From: Streptomyces sp. 846.5 | GTDB lineage: Bacteria > Actinomycetota > Actinomycetes > Streptomycetales > Streptomycetaceae | Direction of reading: 5' to 3' | Assembly: GCF_004365705.1 (NCBI RefSeq) | Contig: NZ_SOBN01000001.1 | Coordinates: forward strand, 2,186,555-2,250,554 | DNA length: 64,000 nucleotides | Translations under genes and position numbers: made by a program | Part shown: positions 965 through 17,092 of the stretch, piece by piece | How positions within the stretch are numbered: the stretch's first letter is position 1 | How the letters are laid out: each line of letters opens with the position of its first letter | Notes under the pieces: model-generated | The model's input: only the letters and a program-made list of their open reading frames with translations | What the model was told of the DNA's origin: nothing | Databases searched by the model: none

Positions 965-994
965 TTGACGCTCGGTCCGGCGGCGTGGTGGTAT
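965..994 (+). promoter_or_regulatory. Probable sigma-70-type promoter of the cobD-cobB unit
   Basis: TTGACG (965-970) and TGGTAT (989-994) are separated by exactly 18 bp, placing the transcription start at about 1001, just where the riboswitch RNA begins. The same layout (ccggTTGACC, 18 bp, TGGGAT) precedes the second cobalamin riboswitch at 15295-15324, which supports both predictions. Confidence 0.55.
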
Positions 995-999
995 CAGCA

Positions 1000-1222
1000 G
1001 GCCAAACGGAGGCATGGAGAGGAAGCCGGTGAAGGGGGAGACCCCCAGTCCGGCGCGGTCCCGCCACTGTCACCGGGGAGCGCCCTCGAACGACGGCCAC
1101 GGCGGCGGCCACACCTGCTTCAGGTGGCGGCAGCTGCGGGAAGGCCCGGGGGCGTGTCGATCCGGGAGCCAGGAGACTCTCGCCCCCGGTTCGTCGATCC
1201 AGGGCGCGGACCCTGAGTGAGG
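1000..1222 (+). promoter_or_regulatory. Cobalamin riboswitch upstream of cobD
   Basis: The segment carries the B12-element core: GGAAGCCGGTGA (about 1021), CCGGCGCGGTCCC, the invariant GCCACTG B12 box at 1063-1069, and the 3' core GGGAGCCAGGAGACTC near 1170. It ends with a small hairpin AGGG-CGCGGA-CCCT (about 1201-1214) followed by GAGTGAGGAC. Adenosylcobalamin or another cobalamin is the known ligand of this class; binding is expected to block expression of the cob genes. Compared with the copy at about 15330, this one has an extra GGGGG-AGA-CCCCC hairpin at 1034-1046 inside the loop that is normally short. Outer boundaries are approximate. Confidence 0.9.
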
Positions 1223-1234
1223 ACATTCACCGCC

Positions 1235-1300
1235 ATGCGCGTTGCTGCTGCACCACCACTTCTGCCTGCAGTCCCCGCCACCGCTCAGCCCTGCGGCTGA
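1235..1300 (+). CDS. Short leader ORF between riboswitch and cobD
   Basis: ATG 1235 opens a 21-codon frame beginning Met-Arg-Val and ending Gln-Pro-Cys-Gly, with a stop at 1298-1300, five bases before the cobD GTG. The purine-rich GAGTGAGGAC upstream is the only good ribosome-binding sequence in the area, whereas nothing resembling one lies in front of the cobD start itself. This suggests that ribosomes load at the leader and reinitiate at cobD. A leader of the same kind, in the same place, occurs in front of cobI (15496-15543). The peptide has no recognisable function. Translation is an inference from layout. Confidence 0.5.
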   Translation: MRVAAAPPLLPAVPATAQPCG

Positions 1301-1305
1301 CCGCC

Positions 1306-2244
1306 GTGCGGGCGACCACCGCCCTGGGCCTCGCAGCGGGATTCGCGGCCGACGCCGCCCTCGGCGACCCCCGGCGCGGGCACCCGGTGGCCGGGTTCGG
1401 CCGGGCGGCCGGGGCACTGGAGCGGCTGATCCGGCGCGACCGGCGCGACACCGGAGCGGTCTTCACGGCGATCTGCGTCGGCGCCGTCGCCGGGGCGGCC
1501 CGCTGCGGCGAGCGCGCCCTGCGCGGCAGCCCGGCCGGGGCGGCGCTGTTCACGGCCGGGGCCACCTGGACCGTGCTCGGCGGCGCGTCCCTGGTGCGGG
1601 AGGCGCGGATCATCGGCGACGCGCTGGAGGCGGGTGACCTCGCGGCCGCGCGCGAGCGTCTGCCCTACCTTTGCGGCCGCGACCCCAGGGAGCTGACCGG
1701 GCAGCAGATCGCCCGTGCGGTGGTCGAGTCGGTGGCCGAGAACACTGCCGACGCGGTGGTGAACGCCCTGGTGTGGGGCGCGGTGGCGGGTGCCCCCGGG
1801 CTGCTGGCGTTCCGTGCGGTGAACACCCTGGACGCCATGGTGGGCCATCGCTCGCCCCGCTACCTGCGGTTCGGCTGGGCCTCGGCCCGGCTGGACGACG
1901 TGGCGGGCTGGCCGGGGGCCCGGCTCACCGCGCTGCTGACGGTGGCCGCGGCGGGGCCGGAACACCGCCGCGACGCCTGGCGGGTCTGGCGGGCGGACGC
2001 CTCCAGCCACCCCAGCCCCAACGCCGGCCAGGCGGAGGCGGCCTTCGCCGGGGCGCTCGGGGTGCAGCTGGGCGGGACCTTGCAGTACGGCAAGAGGGTG
2101 GAGCACCGCCCAGTGCTTGGAGCAGGGTCGCGACCGGTGGCGGTCGCGGACATCGAACGGGCCTGTCGGCTGTCCCGGCGGGTAGGACTGCTGGCGGTCG
2201 GCGTGACCGCGCTGGTCGCGGCGGGAAGGGGGAGGCGCCGATGA
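1306..2244 (+). CDS. cobD: Adenosylcobinamide-phosphate synthase CobD/CbiB
   Basis: An integral membrane enzyme of late cobalamin synthesis that attaches aminopropanol (or its phosphate) to adenosylcobyric acid to give adenosylcobinamide (phosphate). The 312-residue product has the family's early signature [15 protein letters not shown] (around residues 20-34), the core block [20 protein letters not shown], then [30 protein letters not shown], and a late [25 protein letters not shown]. Several Ala/Leu-rich membrane segments are visible. Length is usual for the family. GTG 1306 is preferred because the conserved N-terminus starts there; it has no ribosome site of its own and follows a leader ORF. 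Its stop overlaps the cobQ ATG (ATGA). It is the first gene of the riboswitch-controlled operon. Confidence 0.93.
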
Positions 2245-12807: not shown

Positions 12808-15201
12808 CTACACGGTGTCCTCAACGGTCCTCGACCGGGCCACGGCCGCGGCGATCTCGGTACGCGAGGAGAAGCCCAACTTGGCCAGGATGTGCTCGAC
12901 ATGGGCGTCCGCCGTGCGCTTGGAGATCACCAGTCGCTCGGCCACCTGACGGTTCGACAGCCCCTCGGCGACCAGCGCGGCGACCTCGCGTTCACGGCGG
13001 GTGAGGGCGTCCGGGCCCGGGGCCGGCTGCTGCTCCTGCTCACCCCGCCGCACCGGCGGCGGGGTGTCCGCGTCGGACAGGGCGAGAGCCACGACCTGGT
13101 CCAACTCGCTTGCCGCGCCCTGGCGGTGGCACTGGTCCCGGAGCCGCTCGCCGAGGGCCGCGAGGATCTGCCGCACGGCCGTGTCATGCGACCCGTGGAG
13201 CTCGACGGCACCGCTCAGCGGCAGGCCGGACCGCTCCCACAGCGCTGCGGCCGCGCCCAGCAGCCAGGCGGCCCGGCGGTGCCGGCCCTCCCCCGCCGCG
13301 ACCCAGGCCAGCACCTCCAGGGCGTACGCCTGGCCGGTGCGGTCGCCCAGCTCCGTGCGCAGCCGCAGGGACTGACGAGCACTCAGCGACGCCTCCGGGT
13401 ACTGCCCGAGAGCGAACCTGGCCTGGGCCTTCACCAGCAGCAGAAAGCCGCGCAGCCAGCACTCGTCCGGTGCGGCGGCGAGTACGGCCAGATACGCGTC
13501 GCACACCTCGACACCCTTGTCCGCGCGGCCGGTGGTCACGTACTTGAGCGCCCAGTGCGCCATCATCAGGCCGTCGCTGACCGGGTCCTCGCCGGGGCGC
13601 ACGTACTCGAAGACCTTCTGCGTATGGACCTCGACCTGCTCGTAGTCGCCGCGCCACCCGGCGGCCAGGGTCAGGAAGTGGTGGGCGTGCAGCCGCAGCC
13701 GGTCGTCGTCCAGCCGTTCCGCGATCGCCAGCGCCTCCTCCAGGCCCGGCAGGGCGCCGTCGTGGTCGCCGACGAACAGCGACAGTTCGGCGCCCAGGCT
13801 CAGCGCGAGCGAGCGGGCTGCGGTGGGCCCAGGCTGCTCGGCGAGGGCGAGGTCGATCCAGTGCCGCCCCTCGGCGTGCATCCCGGAGCAGATCCAGAAG
13901 GCCCACAGGTCGGTGCAGAAGGCCAGGCCATGGTCCGGGTCCTCGGCGCCGGCCCCGGCGCCGGCGCTGCCGCCGGCGATCAGGAAGCGCAGCGCGGCGC
14001 GCAGGTTCTCCAGCTCCGGGCAGAGCGCACGGAACAGCGGCAGCTGCGCGTCGGTGGCGAAGCGCGCCCGGAACTCGGCCGCCAGCGCCCGGTAGTGGGC
14101 CAGGTGCCGCCGCCGGATCTCTGGCCCGCCGCCGCTCTGCTCCAGCCACTCGCCGCCGTACTCGCGGATGGTGTCGAGCAGTCGGTAGCGGGTCCGGGCG
14201 TCGTCCGTGTCGACCCGTAGCACCACCGACTTGTCGACCAGGCCGATCAGGTGCTCCAGCACCGTCCCGCCGCCGAGTTCGCCGCCGGCGCAGATCCGCT
14301 CCACCGCGGTCAGGTCGAAGCTGCCGGCGAACACCGACAGCCGGGCCCAGAGCAGCCGCTCCTCGGCCGTGCACAGCTCATGGCTCCAGCCGATGGTGGT
14401 GCGCAGGGTCTGGTGCCGGGGCAGCGCGGTGCGGCGGCCGCCGGTGAGCAGCCGGAAGCGGTCCTCCAGCCGGGCGACCAGCTGGTCCAGCGGGATCGCC
14501 CGGAGCCGCACCGTGGCGAGCTCGATGGCCAGCGGGATGCCGTCGAGACGGCGGCACAGCGCCAGGACGTCGGCGCGGTTGGCGTCGCTGAGGGCGAACC
14601 CCGGCAGCACCGCCGCGGCCCGCTGGGCGAACAGGGCCACCGCGCCGACCCCGTCCGGGCCCTCGTCCTGGACCGGCAGCGGGGGGATGACCAGGGTGTG
14701 CTCCCCCGGGACGTCCAGCGGCTGGCGGCTGGTCGCCAGGATGCCGATCCCGGGCGCGTCGCGCAGCAGCAGGTCGGCGAGCATGGCGCAGGCGTCGACC
14801 AGGTGCTCGCAGGTGTCCAGGACCAGCAGCGCGGTCCGGTCGGCCAGGTACTCGGTGAGGAAGTCCAGCGGCGGACGGGCCGTCTGGTCCACTATCCCCA
14901 GCGAGGCGCAGACGGCCCTGGGCAGCAGTTCCGGCTCCGGGAGGGCGGAGAGCTCGACCAGGAAGACCCCGTCCGGGTAGCGCTCGCGCATCCCGGCGAC
15001 GGTGCGCAGCGCGATCCGGGTCTTGCCGACACCGCCCGGACCGGTCAGCGTGACCAGCCTGGCCTGCGTCAACAGCCGCTCCACGGAGGCGAGTTCGGCG
15101 CTGCGGCCGACGAACCCGGTGACCTCGGCGGGCAGTTCCCCGACCCGCCTGCCATGGACGCTGAAGGTCATCTCCACCCCGCCCGCCTCGCCGGTCCGCA
15201 C
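12808..15201 (-). CDS. LuxR-family transcriptional regulator with AfsR-type ATPase and TPR-like domains
   Basis: About 797 residues. After a VTGFVGRSAEL entry motif come the Walker A GPGGVGKTR (about 54-62) and the LLVLDTCEHLVDACA Walker B region. The middle has a winged-helix block (SHELCTAEERLLWARLSVFAG) and a helical, TPR-like part, and the C-terminus a LuxR helix-turn-helix (LTRREREVAALVAEGLSNRQVAERL, about 735-760, then HILAKLGFSSRTEI). Such proteins usually act as ATP-controlled activators. GTG 15201 is used here; GTG 15177 and ATG 15171 are equally plausible starts. It is divergent from the second cobalamin promoter, so a role in cob regulation is possible but unsupported beyond position. 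Confidence 0.88.
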   Translation of the reverse strand: MRTGEAGGVEMTFSVHGRRVGELPAEVTGFVGRSAELASVERLLTQARLVTLTGPGGVGKTRIALRTVAGMRERYPDGVFLVELSALPEPELLPRAVCASLGIVDQTARPPLDFLTEYLADRTALLVLDTCEHLVDACAMLADLLLRDAPGIGILATSRQPLDVPGEHTLVIPPLPVQDEGPDGVGAVALFAQRAAAVLPGFALSDANRADVLALCRRLDGIPLAIELATVRLRAIPLDQLVARLEDRFRLLTGGRRTALPRHQTLRTTIGWSHELCTAEERLLWARLSVFAGSFDLTAVERICAGGELGGGTVLEHLIGLVDKSVVLRVDTDDARTRYRLLDTIREYGGEWLEQSGGGPEIRRRHLAHYRALAAEFRARFATDAQLPLFRALCPELENLRAALRFLIAGGSAGAGAGAEDPDHGLAFCTDLWAFWICSGMHAEGRHWIDLALAEQPGPTAARSLALSLGAELSLFVGDHDGALPGLEEALAIAERLDDDRLRLHAHHFLTLAAGWRGDYEQVEVHTQKVFEYVRPGEDPVSDGLMMAHWALKYVTTGRADKGVEVCDAYLAVLAAAPDECWLRGFLLLVKAQARFALGQYPEASLSARQSLRLRTELGDRTGQAYALEVLAWVAAGEGRHRRAAWLLGAAAALWERSGLPLSGAVELHGSHDTAVRQILAALGERLRDQCHRQGAASELDQVVALALSDADTPPPVRRGEQEQQPAPGPDALTRREREVAALVAEGLSNRQVAERLVISKRTADAHVEHILAKLGFSSRTEIAAAVARSRTVEDTV

Positions 15202-15294
15202 CCTTCCGAGAGTATCGGTTCGTTCACTGCCTGTGGTGGTGATCAGCCAGAACGGGGGTGGGCACGGGGGTGGGCGAGGACACAGCCGCTCCGG

Positions 15295-15324
15295 TTGACC
15301 TGGCGACGGCGCACGTGGTGGGAT
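15295..15324 (+). promoter_or_regulatory. Probable promoter of the cobI-cobC unit
   Basis: TTGACC (15295-15300), an 18-bp spacer, and TGGGAT (15319-15324). The flanking CCGGTTGAC and CGTGGTGG match the promoter at 965-994, so the two cobalamin units probably share promoter ancestry and sigma factor use. Confidence 0.5.
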
Positions 15325-15490
15325 TTTGAAGCCTTGTACGGCGGCAATGATGAGGAAGTCCGGTGCGAATCCGGCGCGGTCCCGCCACTGTCACCGGGCG
15401 ACGCGTCCCGTACCGGGCGCGGCCGTCCCCGAGCCAGGAACTCTGGCCGCCGACACCACGATCCGGGGCGCGGACCCCGAGTGAGGACTA
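15325..15490 (+). promoter_or_regulatory. Cobalamin riboswitch upstream of cobI
   Basis: It shows the class core GAGGAAGTCCGGTGCGAATC (15352-15371), CCGGCGCGGTCCC, the B12 box GCCACTG at 15384-15390, TCACCGGGCG, and the 3' core GAGCCAGGAACTC near 15433. A terminal hairpin CGGGG-CGCGGA-CCCCG and GAGTGAGGAC follow, matching the end of the first riboswitch. Because the hairpin abuts the ribosome site of the leader ORF, control is more likely at translation than at termination; no U-tract is visible. Boundaries are approximate. Confidence 0.92.
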
Positions 15491-15495
15491 CTGCC

Positions 15496-15543
15496 ATGCG
15501 CTGCTGCGCTCCTGTGCCCCGCTGCCTGCCCACGCCGTGGTGA
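15496..15543 (+). CDS. Cysteine-containing leader ORF overlapping cobI
   Basis: ATG 15496 encodes MRCCAPVPRCLPTPW and stops at TGA 15541-15543, which overlaps the cobI GTG at 15540 (GTGA). TGAGGAC seven bases upstream of the ATG is a good ribosome site, while cobI has none. It is therefore likely that the leader is translated and passes ribosomes to cobI. Three of its 15 residues are cysteine. The first bases (gccatgcgc, then tgctgc) resemble those of the leader at 1235, pointing to common origin. No protein function is proposed. Confidence 0.55.
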   Translation: MRCCAPVPRCLPTPW

Positions 15544-16274
15544 CGCCGCGACTGACCGGCGTGGGCATGGGCCCCGGCGATCCCGAGCTGGTCACCGTCA
15601 AGGCGGTCCGGGTGCTGCGCGAGGCCGCCGTGGTGGTCGTCCCGGTGCTGGACAGCGGCGAGACCGGGCGGGCCGAGGCGACCGTGCTGCACCATCTGGA
15701 CGGCGCCGCGGCCAAGGTCGAGCGGGTGGTCTTCGCCCTGAACGAGCGCGAGGACCGGGCCCGCCGCGAGGCCGCCTGGGACGCGGCCGGCGCCCGGGTC
15801 GCCGAGCTGCTGCGGGAGCACGGCAGCGTCGCCTTCGCCACCATCGGCGACCCCAATGTCTACTCGACCTTCACCTATCTCGCCCAGACGCTGGCCCCGC
15901 TGGTCCCGGGCCTGGTCTTGGCGACCGTCCCCGGCATCACCGCGATGCAGGACCTGGCCGCGCGCAGCGGCACCGTCCTGGCCGAGGGCACCGAGCCGCT
16001 GACCCTGGTCCCGGTGACCGCGGGAGCGGAGGTGCTGCGGGACGCCCTGGCCGGGCCCGGCACCGTCGTCGCCTACAAGTTCGGACGGCTGGCCGAGCAG
16101 GTCGCCGCCGCGCTGCGGGAGACCGACCGGGACGGCACCGCCGTCTGGGGGTCCGCGCTGGGCCTGCCGGACGAGCAGATCCGCCCGGCCGGGCACCCAT
16201 TGACCGGATCGCTGCCGTACCTCTCGACCCTGATCGCACCCGCGACCCGCACCCGCCGTGGAGGCAAGCTGTGA
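15540..16274 (+). CDS. cobI: Precorrin-2 C20-methyltransferase CobI/CbiL
   Basis: A SAM-dependent tetrapyrrole methylase (244 residues) that methylates C20 of precorrin-2. The N-terminal GVGMGPGDPELVTVKAVRVL (residues about 7-26) is the family's glycine-rich cofactor loop. FATIGDPNVYSTFTYL (about 100-115) is the second conserved motif and marks the CobI/CbiL subfamily. VPGITAMQDLAAR follows at about 129. GTG 15540 gives the normal N-terminus VTPRLTGVGMGPGD and overlaps the stop of the leader ORF; no separate ribosome site is seen. The stop overlaps the GTG of cobM. Confidence 0.94.
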   Translation: MTPRLTGVGMGPGDPELVTVKAVRVLREAAVVVVPVLDSGETGRAEATVLHHLDGAAAKVERVVFALNEREDRARREAAWDAAGARVAELLREHGSVAFATIGDPNVYSTFTYLAQTLAPLVPGLVLATVPGITAMQDLAARSGTVLAEGTEPLTLVPVTAGAEVLRDALAGPGTVVAYKFGRLAEQVAAALRETDRDGTAVWGSALGLPDEQIRPAGHPLTGSLPYLSTLIAPATRTRRGGKL

Positions 16275-17092
16275 CCAGCACGGAAGCCACTGTCGGCAAG
16301 GTCACCTTCGTCGGTGCCGGCCCCGGCGCCGCGGACCTGCTCACCTTCCGCGCCGCGCGGGCCATCGCCGAGGCCGACACGGTGATCTGGGCCGCCAGCC
16401 TGGTCCAGGCCGAGGTGCTGGAGCACGCCCGCGAGGACGCCGAGATCCTGGACTCCTCGCTGATCCCGATGGAGGACGTGCTGGCGGAGTACCAGCGCGC
16501 GGCCGACCAGGGCCGCCGGGTGGCCAGGATCCACTCGGGGGACCCCTCGCTGTGGGGTGCGGTCCAGGAGCAGCTGGACCGCTGCCGGGAGCTGGGCCTG
16601 GAGACCGAGATTGTCCCCGGCGTCTCCTCCTTCTCCGCCGTCGCCGCCATCGTCCAGCGCGAACTGACCATCCCCGAGGTGGCCCAGAGCGTCATCCTGA
16701 CCCGGCTCGGCGGGGGCAAGACCCCGATGCCGCCCGGCGAGGAGGTCCGCGACTTCGCCCGGCACGGCACCACCATGGCGATCTTCCTCTCCGCCGCGCG
16801 CACCAAGCAGCTGGTGGAGGAGCTGACCGCGGGCGGCTACCCGCCGGAGACCCCGGTCGTGGTCGCCTACCAGGCGACCTGGCCGGACGAGCTGGTGCTG
16901 CACGGCACGCTGGAGACCCTGGAGGCGACCGTCAAGGAGCACCGGCTGTGGAAGCACACCCTGTTCCTGGTCGGCCCGGCGCTGGCAGCGACGGGGACCC
17001 GGTCGCACCTCTACCACCCCGGCCACTTCCACACCTTCCGCAAGGCCGACCCGGCGGCCCGGCGCGCCCTGCGCAGCAGCGGAGCGTCGTGA
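16271..17092 (+). CDS. cobM: Precorrin-4 C11-methyltransferase CobM/CbiF
   Basis: A 273-residue SAM-dependent methylase acting on C11. It shows VTFVGAGPGAADLLTFRAARAI (about residues 10-31), ARIHSGDPSLWGAVQEQ (about 84-100), and EIVPGVSSFSAVAA, all characteristic of CobM/CbiF, and later LTRLGGGKTPMP. The GTG start overlaps the cobI stop (GTGA), and its own stop overlaps the cobL GTG, so the genes are almost certainly translationally coupled. Length is normal. Confidence 0.95.
   Translation: MTSTEATVGKVTFVGAGPGAADLLTFRAARAIAEADTVIWAASLVQAEVLEHAREDAEILDSSLIPMEDVLAEYQRAADQGRRVARIHSGDPSLWGAVQEQLDRCRELGLETEIVPGVSSFSAVAAIVQRELTIPEVAQSVILTRLGGGKTPMPPGEEVRDFARHGTTMAIFLSAARTKQLVEELTAGGYPPETPVVVAYQATWPDELVLHGTLETLEATVKEHRLWKHTLFLVGPALAATGTRSHLYHPGHFHTFRKADPAARRALRSSGAS

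Follow-up and report, generated by a model that had tools for sequence, protein, structure and literature searches.

A short upstream reading frame as a probable translational relay between a B12 riboswitch and cobI in Streptomyces sp. 846.5

We examined the start of the cobI gene in a stretch of 64,000 nucleotides from Streptomyces sp. 846.5 (contig NZ_SOBN01000001.1, positions 2,186,555 to 2,250,554), which is referred to as the window. A cobalamin (B12) riboswitch is followed there by a Shine-Dalgarno (SD) sequence, a 15-codon upstream open reading frame (uORF) and cobI, whose GTG start codon is overlapped by the uORF stop codon. Comparison with related genomes and the analogy to ppe2 of Mycobacterium tuberculosis suggest that this leader is probably a translational relay, in which the riboswitch acts on the uORF and cobI is reached by termination-reinitiation.

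The cobI leader and its stop-start overlap

The RF00174 match ahead of the leader and cobI scores above the gathering threshold and is the second of two in the window; the other lies ahead of cobD. An earlier note on this stretch, written by a model, had described a 15-residue leader behind the second riboswitch, with a TGA that shares bases with the cobI GTG and a ribosome site that belongs to the leader and not to cobI. Both points were confirmed. Stop and start form an out-of-frame NUGA overlap (GTGA), and the predicted pairing with the anti-SD sequence is -7.8 kcal/mol for the leader compared to +1.4 kcal/mol for cobI. A second in-frame GTG for cobI is found at 15537-15539. Two GTGA junctions occur again downstream in the operon (16271-16274 and 17089-17092), both preceded by GGAGG or GGAG. 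Among the three GTGA-overlapped starts of the cobI operon, the SD is missing at cobI alone. The leader is the first, SD-bearing member in a chain of overlapping reading frames.

The recurrence of this arrangement was assessed with a search string for the platform, GGACCCNGAGTGAGGAC. Within the family, 249 of 394 genomes, covering 13 of 17 genera, contained it, and the reversed string, used as a control, was present in 2 of 394. In 296 genomes drawn class-wide it was found in 12, all of them from the family of the window. Fetched family loci yielded 135 distinct platform copies, 118 before cobD and 17 before cobI. The start codon of the platform is the gene's own start in 39 of the 135 and opens a short uORF in the other 96, and 94 of these uORFs could be scored (9 cobI, 85 cobD). 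Loci L194 and L196, with too little downstream sequence, and M008 and M072, with a fragmentary cobD match, were not included when stop-start distances were counted.

In each of the 94 scorable uORFs the stop lies no more than 12 nt from the gene start. Dinucleotide shuffling with the gene start kept fixed gave an expectation of 23.3 ± 2.0 of 94, which is on the high side, since that shuffle does not break up overlapping stops. When the stop was shuffled too and the nearest-start rule was applied, 8.9 of 94 were expected (cobI 1.3 of 9, cobD 7.6 of 85). In the nine scorable cobI leaders the gene start is overlapped without exception, at an offset of -1 in eight and -4 in one. The offsets of the cobD uORFs are +6, +7 or +8 in 65 of 85, and the remainder fall between -10 and +10. 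This linkage is kept while the uORFs themselves vary from 13 to 48 codons, encode divergent peptides and stand in any of the three possible frames with respect to the gene. The cobI leaders measure 45 to 129 nt, yet the distance from their stop to the conserved CobI motif is only 17-38 nt. The earlier note had asked for a comparison of cobI 5' regions, and the overlap it predicted was kept in 9 of 9 leaders; the cysteine codons that it expected to see conserved were not.

The stop codon was TGA in all 94 scorable uORFs. Many cobD uORFs (for example L029, L067 and L079) also share a similar VTAG- or VTAV-like ending. This ending may reflect an RNA-level context for reinitiation and not a signal in the peptide.

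Predicted anti-SD pairing was compared between uORF starts and gene starts. The mean was -7.26 kcal/mol for uORF starts (n = 94) and -7.17 kcal/mol for genes that open directly at the platform (n = 39). Behind a uORF, it was -0.86 kcal/mol for cobI (n = 9) and -3.91 kcal/mol for cobD (n = 85), compared to -1.57 and -4.04 kcal/mol in shuffled versions of the same stretches. No cobI start behind a leader reached -5 kcal/mol or better (0 of 9, against 9% in shuffles). Judged by these values and their shuffles, the argument that the gene depends on its leader is clean at cobI and weaker at cobD.

Taken together, these data make the following scheme probable. At low levels of coenzyme B12, the SD next to the platform hairpin would be free and a ribosome would initiate at the leader AUG. 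It would read 15 codons, terminate at the UGA within GUGA and reinitiate at the overlapping, SD-less GUG of cobI. With B12 bound, the aptamer with its docked hairpin would block the adjacent SD, possibly by steric means; because the leader would then not be translated, cobI and the coupled downstream genes would not be translated either. What the sequences show is the layout, its recurrence and the linkage of stop to start; leader translation, reinitiation, the direction of the B12 effect and the hiding of the SD are predicted steps of the scheme. The peptide, including its cysteines, would be largely irrelevant, and the leader would serve as an adaptor that joins an unchanging riboswitch platform to gene starts that vary.

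Table 1. Positions of the riboswitch, leader and gene features within the window
Feature	Position	Strand	Basis or remark
Cobalamin riboswitch aptamer, short form, 140 bases	15326..15465	+	RF00174, 38.9 bits vs gathering 31.5
cobI expression platform, GATCCGGGGCGCGGACCCCGAGTGAGGAC	15460-15488	+	sequence
P13-like hairpin CGGGG-CGCGGA-CCCCG of the cobI platform	15464..15479	+	consensus fold
SD GAGGA, 8 nt before leader ATG	15483..15487	+	sequence; duplex -7.8 kcal/mol
Leader uORF MRCCAPVPRCLPTPW, 15 codons + TGA	15496..15543	+	ATG 15496-15498, TGA 15541-15543
GTGA stop/start overlap of leader and cobI	15540..15543	+	sequence; cobI GTG 15540-15542
cobI, precorrin-2 C20-methyltransferase, without own SD	15540..16274	+	TIGR01467, 227.4 bits vs cut-off 163.25
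cobM, precorrin-4 C11-methyltransferase	16271..17092	+	TIGR01465; GTGA junction 16271-16274; GGAGG 16260-16264
First cobalamin riboswitch, long form, 209 bases	993..1201	+	RF00174
cobD platform: GATC, hairpin CAGGG-CGCGGA-CCCTG (1200-1215), SD GAGGA 1219-1223	1196..1224	+	matches cobI platform
cobD leader uORF MRVAAAPPLLPAVPATAQPCG	1235..1300	+	ATG 1235, TGA 1298-1300; stop 5 nt before cobD GTG 1306
cobD/cbiB	1306..2244	+	TIGR00380, NF002276

Possible independent initiation at cobI and evidence that weighs against a relay

Several observations weigh against the relay. The platforms come from fetched loci and not from a random draw, and related genomes are non-independent samples. Most cobD linkages are a spacing of +6 to +8 and not an overlap, which is seen in 25 of 94 cases across both genes. 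The uORF is dispensable, being missing in 8 of 17 cobI platforms. Behind a uORF, 44 of 85 cobD starts pair at -5 kcal/mol or better, compared to 37% in shuffles; with this SD-like pairing, cobD might also initiate independently. Folding of whole leaders and of platforms revealed no stem that hides the SD, and the consensus holds the hairpin alone; in a single-sequence fold of the cobI leader even the hairpin is lost. Finally, among 27 related pairs the third codon positions of the uORFs mismatch more than the other two (75 against 54 and 40), a weak excess; the genes in the same comparison gave 235 third-position mismatches against 122 and 123. As the uORF third positions differ somewhat more than the first two, some peptide constraint is possible.

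The missing leaders and the SD-like pairing at cobD also speak for another explanation, namely that cobI initiates by itself at GTG 15540 (or 15537) without an SD and that the leader is a side effect of a platform start codon having become parted from its gene. SD-less starts occur in some actinobacterial genes. On the other hand, the stop of the leader follows the position of the gene start in every scorable uORF, the pairing value at cobI of this genome is unfavourable, and initiation of this kind would be expected to forfeit translational control by the riboswitch. We therefore consider self-initiation of cobI unlikely.

The distribution of leaders among the cobI platforms was followed further. 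The 17 platforms derive from 14 genomes of the window's own genus and three of one other genus; nine carry a leader, and in the other eight cobI opens directly at the platform start codon. In the earlier note, relatives that lack the frame were named as grounds for giving up the proposal. Such relatives do exist, but the platform start codon in them is an in-frame cobI start, so that the leaderless platforms fit better with a relay than with an independent cobI start. A CobI tree demands two or more changes of the leader label, which points to more than one switch between leader and direct forms; G003 is a direct form, and its three nearest relatives carry leaders.

The genome has a size of 9.0 Mb, and the closest named CobI relatives in the genome collection belong to Actinacidiphila and Streptomyces. 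In 56 loci (L091-L146) out of 80 from a CobI-alignment scan of named genomes, the motif GAG[AT]GAGGA was not found in the 300 nt that precede the CobI match, in a collection that may omit close relatives of the window's genome. Two loci from actinobacterial metagenome-assembled genomes (L141, L142) show riboswitch-like boxes before cobI; by eye they have a direct start, a different SD and platform, and no uORF.

A consensus fold of 112 distinct platforms contained the hairpin as its sole stem, three bases before the SD. One hairpin pair varies (A-U in 95, G-C in 14 and G-U in 3), and the variation visible in the hairpin is limited by the search string, which fixed most other bases on the 3' side of the stem. 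A possible kissing loop between L5 and L13 was not established.

Cysteine codons and control of transcription

The earlier note had also seen in the paired cysteine codons a possible input for sulfur or cysteine sensing. Under this explanation, ribosomes would stall at the Cys codons during cysteine shortage and thereby alter cobI expression. An MRCC start is indeed found in this genome and two close relatives, and in mycobacteria attenuation can involve leaderless short ORFs whose Cys codons are contiguous, according to a later article that cites this work (Canestrari et al., via PMC9031893). The comparison does not bear the idea out. Adjacent cysteines near the start were observed in 3 of 94 uORFs, all of them cobI leaders of close relatives (G000, G001, G005). 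One further cobI leader has a single Cys, which gives 4 of 9 cobI leaders with at least one, as compared to 46 of 85 cobD uORFs. Cys codons are not enriched in frame, neither in cobI leaders (12 of 204, with 10 of 195 and 16 of 195 for the two remaining frames) nor in cobD uORFs (71 of 1949 against 58 of 1864 and 75 of 1864). Nothing points to selection for Cys in the leaders, and the cysteines look incidental. Additionally, as the leader overlaps cobI, the two are not separated by any RNA where ribosome stalling could uncover an SD for cobI, and there is no downstream SD to unmask. A cysteine-responsive leader is therefore very improbable.

A classical ribosome-mediated transcription attenuator has a terminator hairpin between leader and gene. 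At cobI this feature was not found: a simple consensus scan of 15200-15800 gave no intrinsic terminator, and the leader overlaps the gene. The scan gave no sigma-70-type promoter either. A large divergent regulator with a LuxR-type helix-turn-helix at its end is encoded at 12808-15201 on the minus strand, leaving a gap of ~125 nt to the riboswitch match. Since this gap separates the regulator from the riboswitch match, the cobI promoter probably lies within it.

The leader could also work mainly through polarity. In this explanation, C-rich leader RNA that is left untranslated would load Rho, and B12 would halt transcription as well as translation. The bodies of the uORFs are C-rich (C 47.5%, G 30.0%), C exceeding G in 90 of 94, and a review names Rho-dependent termination in connection with the metE leader of M. 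tuberculosis (PMC12713380). However, the bias is modest because C also outnumbers G in the first codons of the same genes (80 of 94); for direct forms this was the case in 19 of 39. That the leader acts mainly through Rho-dependent polarity seems quite unlikely, and termination-reinitiation remains the preferred explanation.

The platform at cobD, in other families and in known systems

The platform of the first riboswitch, ahead of cobD, is identical to that of cobI at 27 of 29 bases, and both changes compensate each other within one stem pair. As the aptamer matches differ in length (Table 1), one platform is used behind two aptamer forms in this genome. The earlier note had called the arrangement a repeated regulatory module. 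This holds true, as hairpin, SD and a short ORF abutting the gene recur at cobD and cobI, here and in relatives. The same layout was claimed for the first riboswitch, and there the leader does abut cobD, but it ends 5 nt short of the gene and does not overlap it. The tgctgc said to be shared among the first codons is out of frame at cobD, where GTT GCT GCT GCA reads Val-Ala-Ala-Ala instead of Cys-Cys; this, too, argues against a cysteine-responsive leader. A hairpin-like insertion, GAAGGGGGAGACCCCCAGT, was noticed in L5 of the cobD aptamer; among the platforms listed it occurs elsewhere only in G001 and G005. Two further B12 riboswitches of the genome precede genes that, by sequence reading, are nrd-like and cobalt/nickel-transporter-like. 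A leader of the cobI or cobD type was not found behind these two.

A looser string, GGACCCNGAGNGAGGA, was run on 394 genomes of the class. It matched 52 genomes, whereas the reversed control matched 18, and all 31 matches outside the family were examined. Eighteen of them precede cobD, cobN or a chelatase-like gene. The other 13 have no recognisable B12 gene and were left out; with a control that matches 18 of 394 genomes, such off-target matches are expected as background. Gene names outside the family were assigned by motif reading, and for the cobD behind the G086 platform also by tblastn. The 18 platforms comprise 11 direct starts and seven uORFs, all of which end within 8 nt of the gene start (-1, +6 or +8); six of the uORFs lie before cobN in one family and one before cobD in another. 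At L321, L322, L323, L324, L325 and L331, riboswitch-led uORFs abut or overlap cobN, and the cobN start shows SD-like pairing as well. Among class-wide riboswitch loci (L255-L283), a candidate uORF with a strong SD and a long ORF close by was seen in 9 of 29, a count made without a chance control (L258, L264, L265, L266, L267, L277, L280, L281, L283). For L267, L277 and L280, cobD was confirmed by tblastn, and L266 and L267 recur among the GGACCCNGAGNGAGGA matches; the others are leads only.

These matches raise a broader proposal, which we regard as evenly balanced between right and wrong. In several actinobacterial families, B12 riboswitches of cob operons may often directly target a disposable, peptide-neutral uORF. 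Such an adaptor cassette would let a near-invariant hairpin and SD platform serve cobD, cobI and cobN, and evolution would shift among direct start, abutting uORF and overlapping uORF. If true, this would be a common mode of controlling B12 synthesis in Streptomyces-type bacteria, and annotation that ignores very short ORFs would overlook the regulated start. Variants that occur in nature, some with the uORF and some lacking it, would provide ready tests of termination-reinitiation and a route to tuning B12 production.

A published report of a riboswitch-uORF arrangement in Streptomyces-type bacteria was not found among the listed titles and openings of abstracts, which is weak evidence of absence. 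In the available sections, a reannotation of S. lividans places a cobalamin riboswitch before cobD-cobQ-cobN and lists eight amino-acid leader peptides, none of them for cob genes (PMC8079986). In a study of S. coelicolor, a putative B12 riboswitch is assigned to SCO1847-1853, which is the cobD-cobI region (PMC4991794).

The cobI leader shares some properties with mycobacterial polycysteine leaderless ORFs, which are, as summarised in PMC9031893 (Canestrari et al. 2020), short ORFs that carry neighbouring Cys codons and lie ahead of an operon. Unlike these, the leader described here is SD-led behind a riboswitch, its cysteines are not conserved and it overlaps the gene. Its ATG lies 30 nt beyond the Rfam aptamer match. 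It also resembles the overlapping gene pairs that use termination-reinitiation (Huber et al. 2019, PMC6728339), in having an NTGA overlap from which coupling may be assumed. In contrast to those pairs, the upstream member here is a short, riboswitch-controlled leader and cobI has no SD.

The closest likeness is to ppe2 of M. tuberculosis, a riboswitch-uORF relay described in 2024 for one mycobacterial gene. According to the available part of that report, uPPE2 has an SD and ppe2 has none, the two share an AUGA, PPE2 expression was shown by experiment to require translation of the uORF, and the products indicate mainly termination-reinitiation, with a small amount of fusion protein (Kipkorir et al. 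2024, PMC11260477). A 2025 review, in the section accessible, terms this case a uORF-dependent translational relay (PMC12713380). Like ppe2, cobI combines a B12 riboswitch, an SD at a short uORF, an out-of-frame NUGA overlap and a gene without SD, and in both cases the operon contains cob genes (cobQ and cobU in the ppe2 operon). Unlike ppe2, the first gene is cobI, the leader has 15 codons, the gene start is GUG, and relatives may show a short spacing or a direct start; the case made here comes from sequence comparison. The kind of arrangement is already known, and its breadth is the new part.
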